A DNA stretch of 64,000 bases from Aureispira sp. CCB-E (GTDB lineage: Bacteria; Bacteroidota; Bacteroidia; Chitinophagales; Saprospiraceae). Location: NCBI RefSeq assembly GCF_031326345.1, contig NZ_CP133671.1:7103501-7167500 (forward strand), written 5' to 3'. Positions 1 to 14,010 of the stretch are shown piece after piece; position 1 is the first letter of the stretch, and every line of letters begins with the position of its first letter. Position numbers and translations under genes: made by a program. The notes under the pieces are model-generated. The model did not search any database and was not told the origin of the DNA. It saw nothing but the letters and a program-made list of their open reading frames with translations.

Positions 1-3000
1 GGTCAGCAATGGTAATGCAAGTATCCATTTGACAACCGGCTACATCGGTGACGGTGACACAATAAGTCCCCGCTACTAAACCATTGATGTTGGCGGTATT
101 TTGTCCTTGTGGGCTCCAAACATAGCTGTAACCACCACTGCCACCAGCCACAACCACACCAACCGATCCATCGGCAGCTCCGGTACAACTAATGGCAGCA
201 CCATTGTAGTTGCTTAGAACTTGTGGATTTAATGTGATAGCTGTTGGTTCGGTTAAGACAGAACCTGTGCTCACACTACAACCATTGGCATCGGTTACCG
301 TTACGGTATGTGCTCCAGCACAAACGTTGGTGGCGATGCTTGTATTTTGTCCGTTGCTCCATTGATAGGTGTAATTTGGTGTTGCTCCTTGTGCATCTAC
401 TTCTATGCTACCATCACAACTTCCATGACACGATGGATTTAGTTGATTGATGATGGCGGCAGTTAATACCGTTGATGGTTCAAAGACCGTAGCACTACCT
501 AAAATGGTACAACCATTAAAGTCAGTTACAGTTACTGTATAAGTTCCTACTGTTAGATTACTTGCTGTAGCAGTTACCTGTCCACCACTTCCAGTTGATG
601 GATCCCATTGATAGCTATATGGGAAGGTTCCGCCAGTAACTAAGGCTGTTACCGAACCATCATTTCCGTTTTTACATTGTACCGAATCTACATCAAATCC
701 TAGTTGTAAAGCCGTTGGCTCTGTAATAATTACGTTTGCTGTTACGGTACATCCATTGGCATCGGTTACGGTAACACTATGTGTATTGGCATCTAATCCT
801 GTTGCCGTTGCGGTATTATCTCCATTACTCCAGTTATAAGTATATGCTCCGACACCACCAGTTAGACTAATGGTTGCTTGTCCATTTGAGCCACCAAAAC
901 AACTCACGTTGATGGTAGAGAAATTGATATTACTAAAGCCTGCTGGTTCGTTCACCTGAATACAAGTATCAACCGTACAACCATTCCCATCGGTAACCGT
1001 TACACAATGCAACCCTGCTGGTAAACCTGTTGCCGTTGCTGTCGTTTGTGCACTGCTATTCCATGCGTAGCTAAAGCCTCCGACACCACCACTAGCATTG
1101 ATCGTCGCACTTCCGTCAGAAGCTCCGTTACAGCTTGCCGATGTACTTGATACGGTAAAGCTGATAGGTTGTCTTAAAACATTGATAGTTATAATAGAAT
1201 CACAGCCTGTTACTGTTTGCAAATGAAAGGTAGTTGTTGTACCTGCCATTAATACTTGACCATTATAAGTAATACTATTTCCAGCACAAATAATAGTATC
1301 TATCACCCTATTAAAGGTGTCCATCCCTTGTACATTAATCGTAACTATAGAATCACAGCCTCCTTGTGTTTGAAGATAAAACTTAGTACTCGTATTTGGA
1401 AGTAACTGTTGTCCTCTATATAAGAGACTATTACCATAACAAATACTAGTATCTAAGATTATATTAAATGTATCTAATCCTAATACATTCACAAAAACGA
1501 AGGAATCTAAGCCATTGTTTGCTATATAAGCAAAGGTATCTATTGTTCCTGGTGATAGATTATTACCTTCATACACAAAAAAGGTTCCTTGGCAAATTGA
1601 AGTATCTATTATAGTAAAGATATTACAAGTATCTATCGATATTGTAAAAGTATCTACAGAAAAACAACCTATAGAATTGCTTGTAACTAATGTATAGGTC
1701 TTTGAAAGTGTAGGATAAAACTCTGGATTCGAACAATTGTTACAACTAATATCTTGATTGGGAAACCATTGATAAGTATAATTGTTATTTAAATTCAAAT
1801 TCAAAGTATCCCCTTGACAAATTGAGGTATCCACTAATGCTGTTAAACCAATTGTATCTATGTTTATTATAATACTATCTCGAAGTGTATCTCTACATTC
1901 ATTAATTACTTCAACCCAATACACTCCTGAATCATATACAGTTAAAGTAGAATCTGTAGTATTATTCTGCCATAAATAATAATCAAAACCAGTTCCTGCA
2001 TTCAAGGATAGTACAGCATTTTCACATAGTATAGTATCTGATCCTAAATTTAACGTTGGACTAATTATCCTAAATATAGTACTATCTATATTATTTAAGT
2101 AATTACATTCCAAAATATTTGTAATTGGGAAATCTGTACTAAAGCTATAGATAGGCGCTCGACTCCCATTATCATTAATAACAACATAAAAGCTAGTCGC
2201 AGCTTTACTCGCTTTTACATTTAACAAATAACAAGAATCCTTCTCAATATTTTGCCCCAATATATAAATAGGTGCAATTAAATTAGCTGTTGGAGTAGTA
2301 CTAGGATTAGCATCATAAATAGCAATAGGGGTCTGATAAGATAAACTGTTGCTCCCTTCATTGCAAATATTCAACATTAGAATAACGCTATCCGAACTAC
2401 AAGAAACGGCATGGATATCAACTGTTGCATCTGCAACAAGAAGCTCTGTGTTAGAATACTGGTTTAAGAAATTATTCAATACACAACTATCTCCTACTAA
2501 ATGATGCTTTTGTTGAACTACAGGGACAGTTAAATCATCATTAATATTGGTATAAGCATAAGCGTGCTGGTTCCAAATATTTCGCGCAGGTCCCCAACGA
2601 GTTATACTAGATTCAAAAATAGAAATTTGTGCCATATTTGCATTTGAAGTTGTTCCACCACAATTACAAATAACTTCTGCTTCTCCATCATCGTCTACAT
2701 CTGCTATAATTGGGTACTCAACAACTGTCTCTGATAAACAAGCTGTTGTCCCCATTACATTACCATTCTGACCATTAACAACATACAAATTTGTTTGATC
2801 TCTATAAAGCACTTCTTTTTGACCATCATTATTAAAGTCAAAAGCTGTACATCCTATTATTCCTGATATATCATTGTTTATCAATGACCACAATACGGTC
2901 ATATCATTATCTAAAACATGCAGTCGTCCCCCTCCTAATGCTCCTGCCTGAACAGCTATTTCTAGTTCGCCATCACCGTCAAAATCAGCTACACTAGGTC

Positions 3001-6000
3001 GTCCAATTGGAGCTGGAATATTTGTATAGTTCCAGAATGGTCGAACTAAAGATTCTGTTTTGGGATTCCAAACATATACTCCTCTTTGAGCAGTTCCAAT
3101 CTCAAAGCCAGAAACAATAACGTCCAATGTTCCATCTTTGTCAAAGTCTGCCACACTAGTAAAGCCATCTCCATGACCTGCCATTGTTTTTACAACTGTC
3201 ATCGAATTAAGAGCTGAATTTGTATAGGATACAATATTAACAGCATATACATTCGGTCCCGCAATTAATTCTAATCCATTGCAGTCAGGATTACCAGCAC
3301 AATCAATTGCATCAATTACATCTGCCCCTACCACTAGTCCTCCTAGGTTATAATCTATATTTTTTCCTCTCGCTCCTATTCCCGTGACTAATAGATTACC
3401 ATTAGTGCTACTATAAATTCGGCGACCATACACTATTTCAGGAATACTATCTTCATTGAAATCATAAATTCCTATTGTGTTATCTCCTGAATCTATCATA
3501 GTAATCACTGACCATTTGAGTGTCCCATCATGTTCATATACACGTAAACTAGAGTCTTGCCTAATTACAATTTCACTTTCTGGATCATTATCTAAGTTTG
3601 CAATAGCAGGATAACCATTAGAAGTAGTTGAGTTTCCAAAGTTATAAGTATACTTCAGAGATCCACTTCGACCATCTATTGCAATTCCTGTTCCATCTGA
3701 TCGGAACCCCACAATTTCCGTATTACCGTCATTATCAACATCTCCAGATACAGCTAATCCCCAATTAGTAACATTCTGAGTAGATTGCCAAGAAGGTTGA
3801 ATTCCAAAGCTTCCTGTTGGGAAGCTGTCTGTACAGTTATTTCCTAAACAAGCTTGGTAGTTCCAATTATCACATACAACATCTCCACAGCAATCAGGAT
3901 CATAACAATCTATTAAACCATCTCCATCATCATCTAAACCATTGTCACAAATTTCGCCTGAACAGGCAGTACGATTACTAAAATCAAAAATATTAGTTCC
4001 ATTTGGATAAAAAGTCTCCCCTTCAAAAATAGCATAGGGATACCTAACACCTAATGTATCTCTAAGCTCATAGATCAAACTGGTATCTGCACAAAATGCA
4101 ATTGTATCAGGGCATTTTTCAATTAAGTATGTATTTATAATGCTACCACTAGAATCTACAAGTTCTAATACATAATTATTTGTATCACAGACCTCATCGC
4201 AATCTAACTTTTGTACTATCATCTCTACTTTTTTGTACTGGCTAGACAAATAATTAAAACCGTCTATTTGGTCTGGCATGGCAAATAAAGCTCCAGGTAT
4301 ATTACTTATGTTGGGCTCTGTTCCTGTTGATAAATCAATATTAGACGGCACTAAGTTTTGAGGCATAAAATTATTAGGATTAGGGATAACATATAATGTA
4401 TTTGTAATTCTCTTTGTAAAGTACAAATTCCCATCATAACATGACTCTATACTTCGAATTCCTTGCCAAGCACTCAAACAGGCTGCATTACTAACTGAAC
4501 ATCCAACTCCTGTAGTCATATTTAAGCTATTAGGTACTGTTTGTACCTGTAATCGCACTTCAAGAGGTCTTATTCCTAAATCTATCTGCCCCAAGTATGT
4601 TAAATTACTACCTCCACTTGAAGTACCGCCTCCATTTGTGAAATATAAAAACCTTCCATTAGGGCTAAATTCTATTTCACTAACACGACTTTCCATATTT
4701 CTTAAAAAACCTAAAGGATAAGTTGTGTTATAAGCTATTGTACTCACCATCCCTGATATATTCAATACATTAGACTGATCATTAGGTGTCCCATCTGGCT
4801 GTAATATCAAATCTCCCAAACTAATACTTTCTGACGAAGCTGTGTTAAAAAGGACAGCATCAAATAAAACAATATCTGTATAATTAATAGATTCATTTCT
4901 GCAAATAACAGCAATTTTATCTTCTGCAGAATTTAGTTCAATTGGAGAACCAGCTACTGTTAAATACCACCAGTTAGCAAATACATTTCCTGTATTAGCA
5001 TCCCAAGTTATTCCTGTTGTTGTAATCAAGAACCTATCTAATGATATATTATTTACATTTACACTACGTCGACACAGATAAAGGTAATGTTGATCACTTG
5101 CCCCAGCTGCCGTTCTCGATACTGCAGCTCCATCTGTATAAGTACGAGACACACCACTTCCATCGACTAATGGCATGTCTCTTTGCAATACACTTAAGCT
5201 ATTACCTCCTGTATATCGAACCCTAGAATAGAGCCAATTCGCTGGCATATAAGACCCATTAGAGCCTATAGACCCAACATCTGTCACCCATTTTTTATAA
5301 ATAATATACCATTCATCATCAACTTGAGGAACCTTAATAACTTGTATTTCTTGTAAGGCTCTTATAGCATTTAATCCAGGTCCATTAGTTGTCGTATTTG
5401 TTAACAAAGGCGTGCCATCTGCCTTATAAATAAAAAGGTTATTGGCATTACTACTGCCAGTATGCAAAACATAAAAAGCTAATTCCCCACAACTATTCAA
5501 GGCAACTCCCGTTTGACCTCCATTACTTGTTGTAGACGTTATAGAATTAACAGAGGGAGTTGGGTTTCTCCAATCAACTATAGATGGATTGACATTTCCA
5601 TAAGGAGCTAGAGGCCATACAGGTAACCCTGTTTGTGCCAAGCCTGTTGTTGAAACTGTAATAATAGTAGCTGCTGTAGTATCACTACAAGTACTACTTG
5701 TGGCTACCAAAAACACATCATAGGTTCCTATCGTAGGAAATGTAAAATTAAAGTTTATATTTGTCCCTTGTGAAATATTATTGACAAACCACTCATAGCT
5801 CGTTGCTCCTGTTGATGTATTATTGAATATAACCGCATCTCCTGGAGATATCTGTGTAGTGTTAGCTATAAACCCTGCCTGAGTACTACAAGTGACTATA
5901 ATACTCACAGAATCTTTTTTAGTGCAATTTGGATCCCCATTTTTTGCTTCTAAAACTATATTATAAGTTCCTATTGTATTGAACATATAACTACTATTAG

Positions 6001-7219
6001 TAGTAGTAGCAAAGGAGACTCCATTATTAAACCATTCGTAAGTACTTGCTCCTGTCGTTAAATTATTAAAATTAACGCTTGTACCTGTTGTAATTATGGT
6101 ACTACTACTTGAAAAAGCTACATTAATTGGTGTTGAACAGGGAGGCATGCATCCTTGAGAAGTCAGAAGACTAGCTCTCGCTCCTGTCAAGAAAAAATGA
6201 GCCCGAACCTTTTGACCTTGGGTAAAACGATTATAACAAGCTAAATTAGAATAATCCATATAATTTTCTTGTTGATCTGGTTGATCTCCTACCCCTCCAT
6301 TAGTAACTGGTCGGAATGGATTATTGAGTGACCAATCATCTTCGTCTGTTCCGCAAGAATTCGGATTGCTTCCACAAGGTGGTCTAGCTGTAGTATTATC
6401 AGGTGGTGTATCACAAACTCGATCTCCATCAACTAGACAATTATTATTAACACATCCTCCTTGAAAAGTGTGATACAAACCTAGATAGTGCCCCATTTCA
6501 TGTACTAATACTTTTGAATTGTTAGTATTAGTTCCCATATAATTAGATTCTACTACTATTCCATCTCGATTATTACCATGGGAAGAAGGGAAATAAGCAT
6601 AACCAGCTACACCTCCTTGTATTTCATTCACAACCCAAATATTAACATAATCCAAAGGGTTCCAACGAATTAAGTTTTTCAATATTAAATCTTGAGTATT
6701 CCGATTTAAACTTGTTAAAGTAGATACTGTATTAGTAATTCCATTAGTATTATTACCATTGGGGTCTCGTTGTGCCAAACAAAATTGGATTTCAACATCG
6801 ACACCAGTAGATGGGTTATATACTCCAACATTTGCAAAAGCATCATTTAAGTGTTGAATAGCATCCTGTACTTGGGCATTCGAAATGTTTCCAACACCAT
6901 TATTATGAATCACATGTACTACAACAGGTAATGTATACAGTGTTCTACCATTCATTGACAGAGATCCTTCTTGTAGTATATTTTGCAACTGGTGCTCTAA
7001 TTGATTTTGGAGTCGCTTCTCTTGTAAAGAAAGGTTATTTTGTAACTCATCAAATGCGCAAAAGCCATTGTGACTATGTGTGTGTTGTAACGAATGTGTT
7101 GTTTGTAATTCTATGTTGTTACTTAAACTCGTTAATAACTCTACTTTATTGATATAACCCAATACACCAAGAAGCCCTACTAGCAAGCTACTCGTTAGTA
7201 CCATTGAAAGATAACGCAT
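1..7219 (-). CDS. Giant secreted M43 (pappalysin-type) metalloprotease with PKD, FG-GAP and SprB-like repeats, 3' end outside window
   Basis: I read one minus-strand frame from the ATG at 7219 to the window edge: the frame at the start codon and the frame coding SprB-like repeats at position 1 agree, giving more than 2400 residues without a stop in the parts I translated. The N-terminus is a hydrophobic signal sequence. Residues 240-250 read HEMGHYLGLYH, the HExxHxxGxxH zinc motif of metzincins, and a Met-turn follows as NYMDYS, so an M43 pappalysin-like catalytic domain is well supported. Behind it (about 6110-5640) are two PKD-like domains, then a propeller-like stretch, a DDDGDGLID calcium-type motif near 3920, FG-GAP/VCBS-like Asp-rich repeats (about 3850-2650), and repeats ending in CxVTVTDxxGC of SprB type (about 1900-1). 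Such proteins are normally exported by the type IX system; the sorting domain would lie beyond the window. Likely roles are cell-surface proteolysis or adhesion. Confidence 0.85.
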   Translation of the reverse strand, partial: MRYLSMVLTSSLLVGLLGVLGYINKVELLTSLSNNIELQTTHSLQHTHSHNGFCAFDELQNNLSLQEKRLQNQLEHQLQNILQEGSLSMNGRTLYTLPVVVHVIHNNGVGNISNAQVQDAIQHLNDAFANVGVYNPSTGVDVEIQFCLAQRDPNGNNTNGITNTVSTLTSLNRNTQDLILKNLIRWNPLDYVNIWVVNEIQGGVAGYAYFPSSHGNNRDGIVVESNYMGTNTNNSKVLVHEMGHYLGLYHTFQGGCVNNNCLVDGDRVCDTPPDNTTARPPCGSNPNSCGTDEDDWSLNNPFRPVTNGGVGDQPDQQENYMDYSNLACYNRFTQGQKVRAHFFLTGARASLLTSQGCMPPCSTPINVAFSSSSTIITTGTSVNFNNLTTGASTYEWFNNGVSFATTTNSSYMFNTIGTYNIVLEAKNGDPNCTKKDSVSIIVTCSTQAGFIANTTQISPGDAVIFNNTSTGATSYEWFVNNISQGTNINFNFTFPTIGTYDVFLVATSSTCSDTTAATIITVSTTGLAQTGLPVWPLAPYGNVNPSIVDWRNPTPSVNSITSTTSNGGQTGVALNSCGELAFYVLHTGSSNANNLFIYKADGTPLLTNTTTNGPGLNAIRALQEIQVIKVPQVDDEWYIIYKKWVTDVGSIGSNGSYMPANWLYSRVRYTGGNSLSVLQRDMPLVDGSGVSRTYTDGAAVSRTAAGASDQHYLYLCRRSVNVNNISLDRFLITTTGITWDANTGNVFANWWYLTVAGSPIELNSAEDKIAVICRNESINYTDIVLFDAVLFNTASSESISLGDLILQPDGTPNDQSNVLNISGMVSTIAYNTTYPLGFLRNMESRVSEIEFSPNGRFLYFTNGGGTSSGGSNLTYLGQIDLGIRPLEVRLQVQTVPNSLNMTTGVGCSVSNAACLSAWQGIRSIESCYDGNLYFTKRITNTLYVIPNPNNFMPQNLVPSNIDLSTGTEPNISNIPGALFAMPDQIDGFNYLSSQYKKVEMIVQKLDCDEVCDTNNYVLELVDSSGSIINTYLIEKCPDTIAFCADTSLIYELRDTLGVRYPYAIFEGETFYPNGTNIFDFSNRTACSGEICDNGLDDDGDGLIDCYDPDCCGDVVCDNWNYQACLGNNCTDSFPTGSFGIQPSWQSTQNVTNWGLAVSGDVDNDGNTEIVGFRSDGTGIAIDGRSGSLKYTYNFGNSTTSNGYPAIANLDNDPESEIVIRQDSSLRVYEHDGTLKWSVITMIDSGDNTIGIYDFNEDSIPEIVYGRRIYSSTNGNLLVTGIGARGKNIDYNLGGLVVGADVIDAIDCAGNPDCNGLELIAGPNVYAVNIVSYTNSALNSMTVVKTMAGHGDGFTSVADFDKDGTLDVIVSGFEIGTAQRGVYVWNPKTESLVRPFWNYTNIPAPIGRPSVADFDGDGELEIAVQAGALGGGRLHVLDNDMTVLWSLINNDISGIIGCTAFDFNNDGQKEVLYRDQTNLYVVNGQNGNVMGTTACLSETVVEYPIIADVDDDGEAEVICNCGGTTSNANMAQISIFESSITRWGPARNIWNQHAYAYTNINDDLTVPVVQQKHHLVGDSCVLNNFLNQYSNTELLVADATVDIHAVSCSSDSVILMLNICNEGSNSLSYQTPIAIYDANPSTTPTANLIAPIYILGQNIEKDSCYLLNVKASKAATSFYVVINDNGSRAPIYSFSTDFPITNILECNYLNNIDSTIFRIISPTLNLGSDTILCENAVLSLNAGTGFDYYLWQNNTTDSTLTVYDSGVYWVEVINECRDTLRDSIIINIDTIGLTALVDTSICQGDTLNLNLNNNYTYQWFPNQDISCNNCSNPEFYPTLSKTYTLVTSNSIGCFSVDTFTISIDTCNIFTIIDTSICQGTFFVYEGNNLSPGTIDTFAYIANNGLDSFVFVNVLGLDTFNIILDTSICYGNSLLYRGQQLLPNTSTKFYLQTQGGCDSIVTINVQGMDTFNRVIDTIICAGNSITYNGQVLMAGTTTTFHLQTVTGCDSIITINVLRQPISFTVSSTSASCNGASDGSATINASGGVGGFSYAWNSSAQTTATATGLPAGLHCVTVTDGNGCTVDTCIQVNEPAGFSNINFSTINVSCFGGSNGQATISLTGGVGAYTYNWSNGDNTATATGLDANTHSVTVTDANGCTVTANVIITEPTALQLGFDVDSVQCKNGNDGSVTALVTGGTFPYSYQWDPSTGSGGQVTATASNLTVGTYTVTVTDFNGCTILGSATVFEPSTVLTAAIINQLNPSCHGSCDGSIEVDAQGATPNYTYQWSNGQNTSIATNVCAGAHTVTVTDANGCSVSTGSVLTEPTAITLNPQVLSNYNGAAISCTGAADGSVGVVVAGGSGGYSYVWSPQGQNTANINGLVAGTYCVTVTDVAGCQMDTCITIAD

Positions 7220-7966
7220 AAATATTATCAAGATTTAGTTGATTGAAAAAATTATGGGATTTAATAATAGAACGTTATCAGTTGTTCCGTATGTAGTGAT
7301 TTTTATTTGGTGTCGCAAAGATATGCCTTTTAACAATATCTTACAATTATCTCTGACAAGACTTTAAAAAAATAATCATTAATTTTTGTAAAATTAATCT
7401 GCCTCACATATAAAGTTTAAAAAACTTATTTACGTTGATGTCTATATATTAACATCATTGTAAGTTTTTAGTACTTCCTTGCCTGCTACTTTGTAACACT
7501 TTCTTGGTACATGATTTTTGGACTTATAGTTTTAATCAATCATTGGAAAGTGCTTCATCACCTTCAAAAAGAACTAATCTATTTACTTTACAAATTATTA
7601 TATGTAAAATTTCATAAATAAAACTTCAAAAACGTTGCAACAAATTAAAAAAATAATTATATTTACAAAACATATTGTGATTTTAATACACCAATCATTC
7701 AAAAAAATCATCTATTCCCAAACGTTATCTTCATAAAACTCTGATTTTCAAAAATCAAAAAGTTTTTTTTTGTAAAAAAAATGTATCGGAATTTGATTTT
7801 CTGCCAAAAAAGACCGTTTTTGTATAAGACTTAACATAAATACCCCCTTTTATATTTATAATAAGTCTGTTAGACCAAATAACAACTGAATAAATTGTTA
7901 TGTCTCAAGTGTTGATACCCCTTTTGTTGAACAATAAAAAAATTTAGGAAAACAATAACCATTAAG
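7220..7966. other. AT-rich divergent intergenic region, no gene seen
   Basis: About 750 bases separate the divergent starts of the metalloprotease and the first sigma factor. The sequence is very AT-rich with many A and T runs and no convincing reading frame. Promoters for both neighbours must lie here, but I could not place a clear -33/-7 pair. Confidence 0.6.
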
Positions 7967-8524
7967 ATGAAATCGGTCGTCCTCGCAGAAATATCTGAAC
8001 GTGAATTAATAGAAGGTTGTATTGCCAAAAAAAGGCGATACCAAGAGCAACTATACTATAGATATGGTACAGATATGTATCAAGTATGCCTGATGTATGC
8101 CAAGAATGAAGCAGATGCTTCTGACATCTTACAAGAGAGCTTTATCAAAGTTTTCAAAAACATACATACCTTTAAATTTCAAGGAGCGTTAGGAGGATGG
8201 ATTCGTAGGACTGTTGTTTTTACTGCTATTAATGCTTATAAAAAGAAGCAAAGGGAAACACAATTAGTTGTCTCTATGCCAGAGACGGAATATGTTGATT
8301 TTTCGGTTAATGAAATTGCAGAAGGATTAGATCCTAGTGAAATTGTAAAACTAGTTAATCAGTTGCCTAAGAAGGCACAACAAGTTTTAAAATTATATGC
8401 GATAGAAGGCTATAAGCATCAAGAAATTGCTGATATGCTAGGTATTTCTGTTGGGACATCAAAATCTCAATTAAATCGAGCAAAAAAAATATTACAAGAA
8501 GCAGTAAAAACACTTCATGGATAA
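7967..8524 (+). CDS. RNA polymerase sigma factor, ECF (sigma-70) family, copy 1
   Basis: A 185-residue ECF-type sigma factor. Residues about 25-90 form region 2, with a DASDILQESFIKVFKN helix typical of the core-binding part and a following GGWIRR segment. Residues about 125-180 form region 4, with LPKKAQQVLKLYAIEGYKH followed by a helix-turn-helix (EIADMLGISVGTSKSQLNRAKK) that would contact the -35 region. It lacks region 3, as ECF factors do. The stop codon overlaps the start of the next gene by 8 bases (ATGGATAA), indicating translational coupling and a functional pair. It is paralogous to the sigma factor at 11679. The regulon cannot be read from the sequence; autoregulation of the pair would be typical. 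Confidence 0.93.
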   Translation: MKSVVLAEISERELIEGCIAKKRRYQEQLYYRYGTDMYQVCLMYAKNEADASDILQESFIKVFKNIHTFKFQGALGGWIRRTVVFTAINAYKKKQRETQLVVSMPETEYVDFSVNEIAEGLDPSEIVKLVNQLPKKAQQVLKLYAIEGYKHQEIADMLGISVGTSKSQLNRAKKILQEAVKTLHG

Positions 8525-10514
8525 CAAAAATCAGAGCAACAACTCGGTTGGAGATACTTCTAAATTCTCTCATGAAAACCAACTGCCTCCTATATGGGAC
8601 AACATCTCTAAAGAGCTTAATGCTTTAGATGAAGATGCTATGCCCCTAGATAACCAAACGGTAGATTCTAACGAGTTATCTGATCTTGCTGACTTTAGTA
8701 TTGTCAAAGAAAGTTTTCAAACTAATTTTAGTACTAAAGAGCCCCCTAAGTTTATGTGGGACAAAATTGAGCAAGATTTAGAATCATTTACAGTTACTGA
8801 TGACCCATCAACATTTAGTGCTATAAAAGATGGTTTTGAGCAAAACTACAAAGAAACCTCTGTTCCTAATTTCACTTGGGCTGATTTAGCGGAAGAAATG
8901 GATAATCCGAAGCCTAAAGAGAAAGTAGAAGATTACGCATTTGTCAAACGAGGTTTTGAAAAGCAATATAGTGCTGTTGTTGTTCCCTTATTTAGCTGGG
9001 ATGACTTGGCCAAACGCATGGATAATGAAGCTGCCCTTGCCGATACACCTGATCGCTACTCTATTGTCAAAGATAGTTTCCAAAAAGTATACGCCAATAA
9101 CCAACCAGCAGTTGACACATGGGCAAACTTAGAGCAACAATTGCAATCTAATTCTCATTGGAAGAAAATAGGGCTACTTTTATCTGCTCCTGCTTTCTTG
9201 AAAAAAGCAGCTTTATTCACAGCTATTGGCGTCTTTATGCTAGGTAGCAAATTCTACCTAGCTAACGAATCAACTCCTATTTCTATTCCAACCTCTTCTG
9301 TTATCGCCAGTAACCAAGAACCTCAAAAGGAAACGACTGCTAAAGATTTGTTTCATAAAATACACGAATCTAGTCTAAATGCAGCTGGTCACAGAAGTCA
9401 CACTGAAGAAACTTCGGAGAAGGTATTGCCGCTTTCTGATGCTTTATACTCTGATGTTGTTACTCCTGAGTCATCAGAAAATACTCCTTCTAGTTTGGAA
9501 AATAACAAAGAACAAGATGGTTCTAACGTTCAAAACCACTTTACTCAAACTGTAGATAAAGATACACCGAACAATACAGGCAATTCTTCCAATACAACAG
9601 GTACTGTTGCCAATGAACAAGATTTATTGTATCAAGAGGATGAAATAAAGCCTAAGGTAGAGCAATCTATTCATACGTCTGATCTTAACTGGATTGGACA
9701 GGCTGGTGTCAATGTAGAAGCATTTGACAAAGGTGTCAATGTTTTGGTTCAAGACTTCATTTTAGATTCGGAAATTACTAAAATGGATGAAGATAACTTT
9801 ACCCTTGTTCGTCAAGCTCAAAAAGGGAAGAAAATTCGTTTTGAAGTAGGGCTAACAGGGAAAGGAGGCACCTCCATCTTATTAGGTCAAAATAAGTACG
9901 AAACTTGGAACAATGGAGAACCAACACATTTGTGCCCTACAGGCGCCTTTGGGATTATGGCTAATTATCACTTTACACTCAATGATGCTGTTGTTCTAGG
10001 AATTTACCCTTACTCTTCAATGAAACAATGCTTTGGCAAATACGATAACAATGGTAATTATGAAGCAACAGATATTGATTTATCTCTATTTGATTTTACT
10101 TTAGGTTATCAAAGGACACTAATTCGATACAATAGTTTGAGCCAAATTCCTTCTAAAATTTACGCTCGCTTGGATTTTGGTCTTGGAATTTTAACGAATG
10201 CAAAAACTAAAGTAAACGAACAAGTTATTAGTTCTGAAAAACTATATAATAAATTTAATTTCTCGGCAGGATTAGCTTTAGGTAATGCACATGAAATTAA
10301 TCAGTTTATCATTGACTATGGCATTACTAGCAATATTGGAGTCAACAACTTAATAACAGGTTCTAACCCTACTATCTTACAGCCTGCCCAATTACTAAAC
10401 ATTGGTGCTTACCTTGGCGTACGATACATCCTTGTTCCTAGGCTTGAACCATCCAAAAAACAACGCCAATTTGACTGGTCTCCTCCATTCTACATAGAAG
10501 AACCTGCGTTTTAA
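8517..10514 (+). CDS. Putative anti-sigma-like membrane protein fused to an outer-membrane-barrel-like domain, copy 1
   Basis: 665 residues in a layout I do not recognise as a named family. Residues about 22-210 hold five related units, four of them spaced almost exactly 40 residues apart (Trp at 81, 121, 161, 202). Each reads roughly [IV]KxxF, then PxFxW[DA]xLxxxM/L. One membrane segment follows (about 228-248), then a Ser/Thr/Asn-rich linker to about 430. The C-terminal 200 residues alternate polar and aromatic residues as in a small beta-barrel (for example FEVGLTGKGGTSILLG, SLFDFTLGYQRTLIRY) and the protein ends in Phe. Position behind a sigma factor, with an 8-base overlap, suggests the N-terminal repeats bind or restrain the sigma factor. 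A barrel in the same chain would imply a protein reaching from cytoplasm to outer membrane. The function is inference; the layout is seen. Confidence 0.75.
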   Translation: MDNKNQSNNSVGDTSKFSHENQLPPIWDNISKELNALDEDAMPLDNQTVDSNELSDLADFSIVKESFQTNFSTKEPPKFMWDKIEQDLESFTVTDDPSTFSAIKDGFEQNYKETSVPNFTWADLAEEMDNPKPKEKVEDYAFVKRGFEKQYSAVVVPLFSWDDLAKRMDNEAALADTPDRYSIVKDSFQKVYANNQPAVDTWANLEQQLQSNSHWKKIGLLLSAPAFLKKAALFTAIGVFMLGSKFYLANESTPISIPTSSVIASNQEPQKETTAKDLFHKIHESSLNAAGHRSHTEETSEKVLPLSDALYSDVVTPESSENTPSSLENNKEQDGSNVQNHFTQTVDKDTPNNTGNSSNTTGTVANEQDLLYQEDEIKPKVEQSIHTSDLNWIGQAGVNVEAFDKGVNVLVQDFILDSEITKMDEDNFTLVRQAQKGKKIRFEVGLTGKGGTSILLGQNKYETWNNGEPTHLCPTGAFGIMANYHFTLNDAVVLGIYPYSSMKQCFGKYDNNGNYEATDIDLSLFDFTLGYQRTLIRYNSLSQIPSKIYARLDFGLGILTNAKTKVNEQVISSEKLYNKFNFSAGLALGNAHEINQFIIDYGITSNIGVNNLITGSNPTILQPAQLLNIGAYLGVRYILVPRLEPSKKQRQFDWSPPFYIEEPAF

Positions 10515-10784
10515 ACTATAAAAGGAGTTTGTTTGAGGATTAGCTTTGTTACTCCCTGTGATTATGAACTCGCACAGCTCGGCTTGCTGTTGTTATCTAG
10601 TATTTATTTCATGAACAGTCCATTGTGTTCAGCATAAGTCTACTCGCCTGTCGCTTAGTTGAGAAACTTATAATTGAGATAGTCTATTTCACGTTCAATT
10701 CCTTTGATTTAGCATGATTTTTGTAGCCCAATTCCTTAGTAAATAGCCCTCCCATTACTGATACTCGCTTGAAAATATGTGACT

Positions 10785-11489
10785 ATGAAATTACTTTTAC
10801 GCTCCAATTTTTCTTTATTTCTAATTTTTCTTTTCTTACTAAGTAGTTGTGAGAAAGAAGATGCTTTTAAAAATCCGACTCCTGTTATTTTTAATTTTGG
10901 CATGAATCAGCAAGGTGTTGGCGGTTCAGATGATTTGACTTTTTCGGATGGATACATCATTATTCATCAGTTTTCAGTTATCGGAGAACGTGTGGAAGGA
11001 GAAGATTTTGAATTTTTGCGGACATTTCCCAATGGTTTAAAAATTCCGTTTTATAATAATTCTACTTTTGATGAATTGAGTTTTGATTTGCCACAAGGAG
11101 CATACAATAGTTTAAAGATTCGTTTTGAAACCCAAAGTGGTATTAACACCAACTTATTTGTAAAGGGTCGTTATTTGTATAATAATCCTCTCAAAAATCC
11201 TTCTACAGTACATTTAAAGTGGAATACAAATAAAGTTTTTGAAGCCAATCTATTGTCTTCTACAGGGATGCGTTCTTTGGTACTAAATGAAACCAAAACC
11301 GAAACGCCTCGAATCATCTTCAAACCTAAGCCTTGGTTTGCCGACGTCACAGAAATGATGCTTGAAAATGCTTCGTTTTTAACAACAGCAAACAACGAAC
11401 AAATCATGACAATTGATCCAACTAATAATGTAACTATCTTCACAGAGATTGATTTAAAAATAGGAACAGAATTAAAATGTTCGTTGTAA
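10785..11489 (+). CDS. Hypothetical lipoprotein
   Basis: 234 residues from the ATG at 10785; a GTG two codons earlier is also possible. The N-terminus is a short charged and hydrophobic segment ending in LLSSC followed by EKED, a clear lipobox (signal peptidase II) with acidic residues after the Cys. The rest is beta-rich with no catalytic motif. A 270-base gap precedes it and about 190 bases follow before the second sigma gene, so it may be transcribed on its own. It resembles the general class of Bacteroidota lipoproteins with an immunoglobulin- or carboxypeptidase-like fold, but I do not assign a family. Its place between two paralogous sigma pairs makes it a candidate member of the same regulon. 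Confidence 0.8.
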   Translation: MKLLLRSNFSLFLIFLFLLSSCEKEDAFKNPTPVIFNFGMNQQGVGGSDDLTFSDGYIIIHQFSVIGERVEGEDFEFLRTFPNGLKIPFYNNSTFDELSFDLPQGAYNSLKIRFETQSGINTNLFVKGRYLYNNPLKNPSTVHLKWNTNKVFEANLLSSTGMRSLVLNETKTETPRIIFKPKPWFADVTEMMLENASFLTTANNEQIMTIDPTNNVTIFTEIDLKIGTELKCSL

Positions 11490-11678: not shown

Positions 11679-12221
11679 TTGAAGGAACTTTCAGAGAGAG
11701 AACTAGTAGAACGTTGTGCTGCCGATGAGCGACAGTACCAAGAACTACTATATCGCAAGTATGCTGGCGATATGTATAAAGTATGCCTAATGTATGCCAA
11801 CAACAAGGCAGATGCGGCTGATATTTTACAAGAAAGCTTTATTAAAGTATTCAAAAATATACACCGCTTTAGATTCGAAGGCTCTCTAAGAGGTTGGATT
11901 CGTCGTACCGTTGTCCATACTGCTATCAACGCCTATAACAAAAAACAGCGTGACACGCAAGTAATCATTCCAATGGCAGAAAGTGGGGAGGTAGATGCTT
12001 CTATTGATAGTATTGTTGGACAGCTAGAAGCTAATGACATTATTAAGTTGGTTAACTCTTTGCCTCAAAAAGCTAGGCAAGTTCTTAAATTATATGCCAT
12101 AGAAGGCTACAAACATAAAGAAATTGCCGCTTTGTTAGGAATTACAGAAGGTACTTCTAAATCCCAATTCAGTAGAGCTAAAAAAATGCTACAAACTTCA
12201 ATTGAAACACTCCATGGCTAA
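11679..12221 (+). CDS. RNA polymerase sigma factor, ECF (sigma-70) family, copy 2, TTG start
   Basis: 180 residues, closely similar to the sigma factor at 7967 over its whole length (for example DILQESFIKVFKNIH and QVLKLYAIEGYKHKEIA are shared). Region 2 occupies about 20-85 and region 4 about 120-175. The only sensible start is the TTG at 11679, because an in-frame stop lies at 11664 and the next ATG would remove the first helix of region 2. A weak start may keep the amount low. Its stop codon overlaps the next gene by 8 bases (ATGGCTAA), as in copy 1. The two pairs look like an old tandem duplication with a lipoprotein gene between them. Confidence 0.9.
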   Translation: MKELSERELVERCAADERQYQELLYRKYAGDMYKVCLMYANNKADAADILQESFIKVFKNIHRFRFEGSLRGWIRRTVVHTAINAYNKKQRDTQVIIPMAESGEVDASIDSIVGQLEANDIIKLVNSLPQKARQVLKLYAIEGYKHKEIAALLGITEGTSKSQFSRAKKMLQTSIETLHG

Positions 12222-14010
12222 GAAACAACAGCAAAATAAAATTGGAGAAAGTTTTGAACAACATCTCCCTGATGAATTGGTTCCTGATTTTATTTGGAAT
12301 AACATCTCCAGTGCCTTAGACAAGGCTCCTGCTATGGAAGAAAGTACCGAAAAAATCAAATCCTCTTTTGAAAAGGGATTTGAGCAGGAAGCATTGCCCG
12401 TATTTCTATGGGATAACATCGAGTCTTCTCTGAATCATGCAAGCTTTTTGGAGGAATCTGTCGAAAATGAAAATAAAATTAAGGCTTCTTTTGAAGAGGG
12501 CTTTCAAGATACTATTCCTGACAACTTATGGGAAAATGTAGAAAATCAGTTGGAAATTGAAGGTGTTTGGCAGCGGGTCTTGAAACGCTTAAACAAAAAT
12601 ACTAGAAGACGGTATTGGCAGGAAAAAGGAATGCAACTGGGCATTCTTGCCTTGGCTGTTTTGCTACTTAGAGGCTGTGACTTTGGGCAATGGTCTACTA
12701 TAACTCCTATCGCTCAAAAAGTAAATGTATCTACTCAAACAACTTCTTCTACAACACCTCCGTTTGTATCCAATAAAAAGGTTAAAAATGGTTCTGAGAA
12801 CCACTCTAGTAATTCCATTGCCCCTACAAAGAATCCAAAACTTTCAGATGCTAGTCATTCTCTTATTGATAATACTAGTTCGTTGACCTCTTCAAAAGAA
12901 ACAACAATAACGAATACGATTACCAATAATCCTACTTCGGTTGCTGCTCTTTCTAAGTCTAAGAATCATCATCCGTTCGATAATCTGTCAAAAGGATCTA
13001 TTAAACCATCTGTTACTGCTGCTAAACAAGAAAAACAGGATATTACAGCACCTAATCATAACAACCAACCCTATCTAGAACCTATAACAAATAAGGCACA
13101 AGGCAAGTCAGATCAACAAATATCTGAACTTCAAGAAACAGCATCGTTAACACAACAATCTCCTAGAGTACCGCTTAACAATAACAAAACTTCTGACCTT
13201 TCCTCCATAAAAGCGTCTACTACTCCAGCTAATAATTATAATAGTTCTAATTCTACAAATTCAACACCAACTCCTTCTGCTCTACTAAGTCAAGCTGCCA
13301 TTGCGACACTGACAAACAAACCATTTGTTGATTCATCCATTCAGGTACTTCAGGATTTCCACATTAAAAATATCCTTAATAAGAAAAAGCATCAAGTTAG
13401 ATTTGAAGTAGGAATGAATGGGAAAATAGGTACTTCTCTTTTATTAGGAAATGCGACCAGTAAAGGTATGGAAACAACAAGTATGACTAAAACAAAAACT
13501 CGTGTGGCAGGTGGCATTGGGATTATAGTAAACAGCTACCTAACCGCTAATGATGCGATTGTTTTTGGCGCCTACCCTTTGTCCAATAGCCAACAATACT
13601 TTGGAGGGTATACCAATGAGGGACGTTATTACCACAAAGAAGTCAAACTGGCTTACTTTGATTTTACGCTAGGTTATCAACGAGTCTTAGTACACTACAA
13701 TGATTTTGGCACGATTCCATCTTCTATCTATGCTAGAATAGACTATGGATTAGGTTATTTAAGTAAAAGTGAGGAAATCGTCAATGGGCTTGCTTCTGAA
13801 CTAGGTGATGCCTATAACAAATTGAATCATAATATTGGTCTGACCATTGGTAATACACATCGCATCAATCGTTTTGTTATTGATTATGGTCTTTATGGCA
13901 ATCTGGGTTTAAGTGCTGTTCTTAACTTTAGCCCATCTGGAACCAATACAATAGAATACAGCAACTTAGCGACCATGGGTGGCTATGTAGGTCTTCGTTA
14001 TGTCTTGTAA
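12214..14010 (+). CDS. Putative anti-sigma-like membrane protein fused to an outer-membrane-barrel-like domain, copy 2
   Basis: 598 residues. I chose the ATG at 12214 rather than the TTG at 12202 because it reproduces the 8-base start/stop overlap of copy 1. Three Trp-centred units precede the membrane segment (Trp at 28, 66, 106), against five in copy 1; the fullest reads IKSSFEKGFEQEALPVFLWD. A single hydrophobic helix lies at about 141-154. It is followed by a long Ser/Thr/Asn/Lys linker, then a C-terminal barrel-like domain from about 385 that matches copy 1 in several places (FDFTLGYQR, IPSSIYARIDYG, FVIDYG) and ends in YVGLRYVL. The same role is inferred: restraining the adjacent sigma factor and linking it to the envelope. 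The linker is far less conserved than the two ends. Confidence 0.75.
   Translation: MAKKQQQNKIGESFEQHLPDELVPDFIWNNISSALDKAPAMEESTEKIKSSFEKGFEQEALPVFLWDNIESSLNHASFLEESVENENKIKASFEEGFQDTIPDNLWENVENQLEIEGVWQRVLKRLNKNTRRRYWQEKGMQLGILALAVLLLRGCDFGQWSTITPIAQKVNVSTQTTSSTTPPFVSNKKVKNGSENHSSNSIAPTKNPKLSDASHSLIDNTSSLTSSKETTITNTITNNPTSVAALSKSKNHHPFDNLSKGSIKPSVTAAKQEKQDITAPNHNNQPYLEPITNKAQGKSDQQISELQETASLTQQSPRVPLNNNKTSDLSSIKASTTPANNYNSSNSTNSTPTPSALLSQAAIATLTNKPFVDSSIQVLQDFHIKNILNKKKHQVRFEVGMNGKIGTSLLLGNATSKGMETTSMTKTKTRVAGGIGIIVNSYLTANDAIVFGAYPLSNSQQYFGGYTNEGRYYHKEVKLAYFDFTLGYQRVLVHYNDFGTIPSSIYARIDYGLGYLSKSEEIVNGLASELGDAYNKLNHNIGLTIGNTHRINRFVIDYGLYGNLGLSAVLNFSPSGTNTIEYSNLATMGGYVGLRYVL

Follow-up and report, generated by a model that had tools for sequence, protein, structure and literature searches.

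The window, by which we mean the whole 64,000-nucleotide stretch of DNA that was analysed, comes from the 7.39 Mb genome of an Aureispira and encodes two ECF sigma factors, each followed by a long Dma-like anti-sigma factor. The genes of interest are:

7967 to 8524, plus strand: ECF sigma factor 1 (185 aa), the presumed cognate sigma factor (PF08281, 1.2e-16; PF04542, 2.1e-11)
8517 to 10514, plus strand: Dma-like anti-sigma factor 1, an ORF of 665 aa that overlaps sigma 1 by 8 nt
10779 to 11489, plus strand: lipoprotein-like gene with no match in Pfam, located 189 nt ahead of sigma 2
11679 to 12221, plus strand: ECF sigma factor 2, a paralogue 66% identical to sigma 1
12214 to 14010, plus strand: Dma-like anti-sigma factor 2, 598 aa from the ATG at 12214, with three units

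Sigma 1 contains both sigma regions, 2 and 4, according to Pfam. These domains and the ORF coordinates bear out the original prediction of an ECF sigma gene overlapping a 665-residue ORF by 8 bases. TIGR02985 and NF058625 also match sigma 1, both under their cut-offs, and a profile of its subfamily finds 29 matches in its own genome at E<=0.001. Anti-sigma 1 has a 99% identical counterpart in Aureispira sp. CCB-QB1, which places the host group in the Bacteroidota. Two uncultured Aureispira (loci L007 and L008) share the gene order of the window, with sigma 1, anti-sigma 1, the lipoprotein-like gene, sigma 2 and anti-sigma 2. Their sigma 1 proteins are each identical to that of the window at 180 of 185 residues, and the three anti-sigma 1 orthologues are 59-65% identical over their whole length. 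Upstream of sigma 1, the DNA of the three orthologues is conserved mostly within ~60 nt of the start, and we therefore claim no ECF promoter motif; the DNA upstream of the lipoprotein-like gene and of sigma 2 holds no clearer promoter signal. A tblastn search against plasmids gave no match. On the minus strand of the window (2-7231), an open ORF of 2410 aa extends past the edge; its product looks secreted and combines a metalloprotease-like start with many repeats in the C-terminal part.

With the ATG at 12214 as its start, anti-sigma 2 would overlap sigma 2 by 8 nt. Its Trp residues are at positions 28, 66 and 106 from this ATG, or 32, 70 and 110 from an upstream TTG, and a weak anti-sigma match of this protein (E 0.072) is the only one that NCBIfam gave for the two long proteins of the window. 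A third cluster of the genome (L009) comprises a lipoprotein-like gene, a sigma gene and an anti-sigma gene. Three multi-unit clusters are present in the genome, and in at least five other pairs of a sigma gene and a long partner the partner has one or two units. The lipoprotein-like family has no convincing Pfam match and lies directly upstream of a sigma gene in many lineages. Besides the window, its relatives occur in L009, L012, L013, L016, L036-L039, L042, L053, L054 and L057; of these, L053 and L057 match less well, and those rows that went into the profile match it by construction.

Tandem tryptophan units of anti-sigma 1

The N-terminal part of anti-sigma 1 carries Trp residues at positions 27, 81, 121, 161 and 202, spaced by 54, 40, 40 and 41 residues. 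Four 40-residue repeats (Trp 81, 121, 161 and 202) and a weaker additional unit had been predicted; the fifth is centred on Trp27, and a profile search with the unit recovers all five:

8517 to 8630, plus strand: unit 1, the weaker one, Trp27, residues 1-38 (HMM iE 0.001)
8691 to 8792, plus strand: unit 2, Trp81, residues 59-92 (HMM iE 2.9e-7)
8811 to 8912, plus strand: unit 3, Trp121, residues 99-132 (HMM iE 4.7e-4)
8931 to 9032, plus strand: unit 4, Trp161, residues 139-172 (HMM iE 0.0046)
9054 to 9155, plus strand: unit 5, membrane-proximal, Trp202, residues 180-213 (HMM iE 0.017; alignment A5)

The HMM was trained on 58 units, all from loci outside Aureispira. When residues 1-225 were shuffled, any unit appeared at iE<0.01 in 3 of 200 sequences and at iE<0.1 in 18 of 200, which rules out chance repeats as the source of the units. 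A recent tandem array at the DNA level is likewise ruled out: a repeat check found no array and only a 23-nt trace in three copies, at 8699, 8939 and 9062.

Each unit is built around a Trp, often with Pro before it, and has Ile/Leu three and Leu/Met seven residues further on. This core is kept in all five units of the window, L007 and L008. In alignment A5, whose members are 13-27% identical to anti-sigma 1 of the window, the Trp202 column is invariant across all 39 sequences (the window protein included) and L209 is at least 90% conserved. From the comparison of relatives, the Trp/Ile-Leu/Leu-Met motif is the likely sigma contact. Two proteins of the same genome that we take to be FecR-like (L098:4237-5241:+ and L100:1580-2602:+) have a Trp..Leu...Leu motif ahead of the membrane helix, and more than one anti-sigma type may therefore share it.

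Sigma-adjacent partners and unit copy number

Relatives of anti-sigma 1 were collected from overlapping samples of family, class and order genomes, each of which includes the source genome. At E<=0.001, profile A1 matched 14 of 199 family genomes and profile A4 matched 36 of 395 class genomes and 27 of 198 order genomes, some short barrel-less proteins and ordinary outer-membrane proteins being among the matches. A sigma ORF and a partner ORF lying -80 to +250 nt from it were then treated as a sigma/partner pair. Partners whose last 150 residues were the same entered the count a single time, which puts L006 together with the window, and 60 distinct pairs came from 91 loci and from the first 16 kb of the window.

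In 58 of the 60 pairs, a sample partly collected with profiles that contain the unit, one or more Trp units precede a membrane helix in the partner; the exceptions are L070 and a 199-aa partner in L083. The C-terminus varies across the pairs and may be barrel-like, a T9SS sorting domain, or short. As unit and membrane helix are the constant parts beside the sigma gene, we infer that the unit is the sigma contact. The predicted binding of sigma by the Trp repeats is thus favoured by comparison only, through a unit before the helix in nearly all pairs and a variable C-terminus.

A second set approached the relatives from their C-terminal halves, with 26 loci chosen from those class and order matches of A4 whose start lies no earlier than profile position 244. 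A separate N-terminal match is also present in six of them (L034, L035, L038, L039, L045 and L064), which were left out; 14 of the other 20 loci encode a unit and a membrane helix (20 of 26 with the six). Among these 14, an ECF sigma gene lies directly upstream in eight, two run into the end of the locus, and four show no sigma gene in the DNA examined. The remaining six of the 20 include four that look like ordinary secreted proteins and two that were not classed.

Six short proteins (L018-L023, 203-297 aa) resemble anti-sigma 1 in having tandem Trp units before one membrane helix, and differ from it in having ~100 residues past the helix and no barrel. They carry two to five units, the five of L019 and of L023 being counted by eye. 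An ECF sigma gene is adjacent in five of the six loci, and the sixth, L023, starts near the locus edge. Since these barrel-less proteins beside sigma genes carry the same units, the unit is the common part. Each of them precedes a similar ~300-aa gene.

Two further sigma-adjacent proteins, L051:1480-2925:+ and L052:616-1818:-, have two and three Trp units, respectively, and a membrane helix. Where the barrel would be, both end in a type B sorting domain of the T9SS (CHU_C, E 2.1e-11 and 1.4e-12). These proteins are possibly anti-sigma factors that report on the T9SS.

The 42 long partners carry one (20), two (11), three (7), four (1) or five (3) units, as counted by a regular expression that by eye is one too low for L035, L042 and L053 and one too high for L057. 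Only anti-sigma 1 of the window and the orthologues from L007 and L008 have five. A sigma tree of 58 rows was built with sigma factors of more than 230 residues trimmed to their last 200, six counts set by eye (L019, L035, L042, L053, L057 and L058) and the unit-less rows L070 and L083 dropped. On this tree, which is rough and has several long branches, the state 'two or more units' requires 7 changes, compared with 16.9 in shuffles, and at least 4 of the 7 are forced by well-supported branches. Unit number changes repeatedly along the sigma tree.

The conservation of five units in three orthologues suggests a multivalent anti-sigma factor, a single chain of which may hold two or more sigma factors. 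We give an even chance to the alternative that a chain binds one sigma only: either the five copies provide avidity, or sigma docks at the membrane-proximal unit alone and the remaining copies serve as spacers or as sites for a different partner. This alternative opposes the multivalent detail and not the Dma-type reading of the pair. It fits the position of the invariant Trp, which is the membrane-proximal one, and the prevalence of one or two units (31 of the 42 long partners). It also fits anti-sigma 2, which has three units in the window, three in L007 and two in L008; a number that differs between close relatives indicates that extra copies can be lost. Against it, the core residues are retained in every one of the five units in each of the three orthologues, and conservation of the units matches that of the barrel region: relative to L007 and L008, identity is 78% and 72% for unit 1, 76% and 78% for units 2-5, and 75% and 68% for the barrel region. 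This argues against idle copies.

Membrane helix, linker and C-terminal domain

Beyond the units, anti-sigma 1 contains four further parts:

9207 to 9263, plus strand: single membrane helix, residues about 231-249, from hydropathy
9282 to 9800, plus strand: variable linker or tether, residues 256-428, from orthologue identity and composition
9801 to 10430, plus strand: C-terminal barrel-like domain, residues 429-638, from hhalign to the C-termini of L069/L067 (probability 96%)
10431 to 10514, plus strand: 27-residue tail after the barrel region, plus stop codon, from orthologue identity

The single membrane helix and the long linker were both foreseen and both hold. The top 19-residue hydropathy window begins at residue 231 (mean 1.6), and the linker is 32% identical to that of L007 and 28% to that of L008. 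With S/T/N/P/Q making up 40% of its residues, the linker is predicted from composition and conservation to be a long intrinsically disordered tether. A poorly conserved linker of this length fits either a tether or a cleavage region, and the chain could be cut after assembly, so that barrel and anti-sigma factor act as two proteins with no lasting link across the periplasm. We consider this unlikely, as the long partners in the sampled families keep these parts together in one protein and PMC13088901 regards Dma as one chain.

The tail is identical at 25 of 27 residues in L007 (93%) and at 26 of 27 in L008 (96%). It is absent from anti-sigma 2 and anti-sigma 3, and a search of the genome for a second copy found none at E<=10.

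The beta-barrel-like C-terminus that had been predicted finds its support in relatives. Neither anti-sigma 1 nor anti-sigma 2 matches any Pfam family, hence there is no direct barrel match. Within A5, 11 of the 39 sequences match PF13505 and seven match PF13568 at E<=0.1; eight match an outer-membrane barrel family of NCBIfam (best 8.3e-10) and eight the NCBIfam 'anti-sigma factor' model (best 6.7e-4). In hhalign, with E-values that apply per single comparison, the C-termini of Aureispira and near relatives align with those of L069/L067 over 165 columns (probability 96%, E 4e-9), and L069 passes PF13568 with 50.9 bits against a cut-off of 27. The Aureispira-set C-termini also align with L038/L039 (probability 99%, E 1.9e-18), which match PF13505 slightly under its cut-off. 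The alignment with the L077 group is partial (probability 75%, 71 columns), the PF13568-positive L047/L048 do not match (probability 0.6), and a control with the linker gave a probability of 0.05. In the same genome, L094, L095 and L096 encode sigma-adjacent proteins with one or two Trp units and PF13568 above its cut-off, which L096 clears only when neighbouring pieces are summed. Two more sigma/partner pairs of this genome, L098 and L099, have one unit each. The unit HMM detects the units in four of these five loci, and the unit of L096 was found by eye.

Strand periodicity was not significant in the barrel region of anti-sigma 1 (10 peaks, shuffle mean 7.3, fraction 0.088) or in anti-sigma 2 (8 peaks, shuffle mean 7.5, fraction 0.506). 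Of two profile searches against solved structures (PDB), which found no relevant chain, one returned none and the other had DotF as its best match (E 0.031). The C-terminus could instead be a periplasmic beta domain, making the protein an inner-membrane anti-sigma factor with a large sensor. The missing Pfam match and the non-significant strand test would fit such a domain, as would the two relatives with a T9SS sorting domain where the barrel would be, which show that the C-terminus is exchangeable. The profile links to members of PF13568 and PF13505 speak against it, together with a composition rich in Gly (10%) and aromatic residues (12%), and we judge a periplasmic domain very unlikely. 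Through the profile homology of its relatives only, the C-terminus of anti-sigma 1 is assigned as a putative outer-membrane-type barrel (PF13568/PF13505).

Comparison with known systems and proposed mechanism

FecR-type anti-sigma factors of TonB-dependent signalling relay an outer-membrane event to an ECF sigma factor from the inner membrane, and the outer-membrane receptor is a separate protein. Anti-sigma 1 is proposed to perform the same kind of relay, but with barrel and anti-sigma factor on one chain.

A one-chain layout beside a sigma gene has been published for the Dma family of gut bacteria (PMC13088901). Dma comprises an N-terminal anti-sigma domain, one membrane helix, a long disordered tether and a C-terminal barrel, with a neighbouring ECF sigma factor; the class was named recently, little is known about most of its members, and Pardue 2024 PNAS is cited there as the founding paper. 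The features that define Dma also include a sigma factor of group ECF21 and a chain that reaches from the inner to the outer membrane and represses its sigma factor in vivo. Compared by description, anti-sigma 1 shares with Dma the four-part layout, with a candidate anti-sigma domain at the N-terminus, the adjoining ECF sigma gene and a Bacteroidota host. It differs, again by description, in its five tandem N-terminal units, in the conserved 27-residue tail past the barrel region, and in a locus where two sigma/anti-sigma pairs flank a lipoprotein-like gene. The available portion of PMC13088901 does not mention tandem units, and a literature search whose scope did not extend to the founding 2024 Dma paper found no tandem, copy-variable anti-sigma units. 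The original idea that one chain would link an outer-membrane barrel to a sigma factor agrees with the relatives and with what PMC13088901 says of Dma; as both share the layout, it is known and not unprecedented. The layout of anti-sigma 1 is therefore not new, and the multiplication of the unit is its distinctive part.

Sigma 1 and anti-sigma 1 very probably form a Dma-type pair that connects an outer-membrane barrel to a sigma factor, and the five units suggest a multivalent holder. The gene pairing, the five units, the membrane helix, the variable linker, the C-terminal homology to barrels and the conservation of each part are read from the sequence; we infer the binding of sigma by the units, the placement of the chain across the membranes, the signal it senses and the release of sigma. 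The units at the cytoplasmic N-terminus would keep sigma 1 inactive at the inner membrane, which the single helix would cross. The flexible linker of roughly 170 residues would span the periplasm as a tether to the C-terminal barrel, which would sit in the outer membrane. A change there, such as in barrel ligand, assembly or envelope state, could alter or cut the chain and free sigma 1. If multivalent, the five units may allow one chain to hold several sigma factors, namely sigma 1 and perhaps the 66%-identical sigma 2.

We tentatively propose, as a possibility that is rather less probable than not, that Bacteroidota tune anti-sigma capacity by gain and loss of a ~40-residue unit that binds sigma. 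A five-unit chain might then store several sigma factors on one sensor linked to the outer membrane, to be released all at once or stepwise, and two related sigma factors might be mixed on it. The same units also sit on other sensors, including the T9SS sorting domain. For the recently named Dma class, the comparison supplies a short conserved motif as the likely sigma contact. Copy numbers from one to five offer a natural series for how valency sets anti-sigma capacity and, if the proposal is true, units mounted on T9SS sorting domains could report on secretion.
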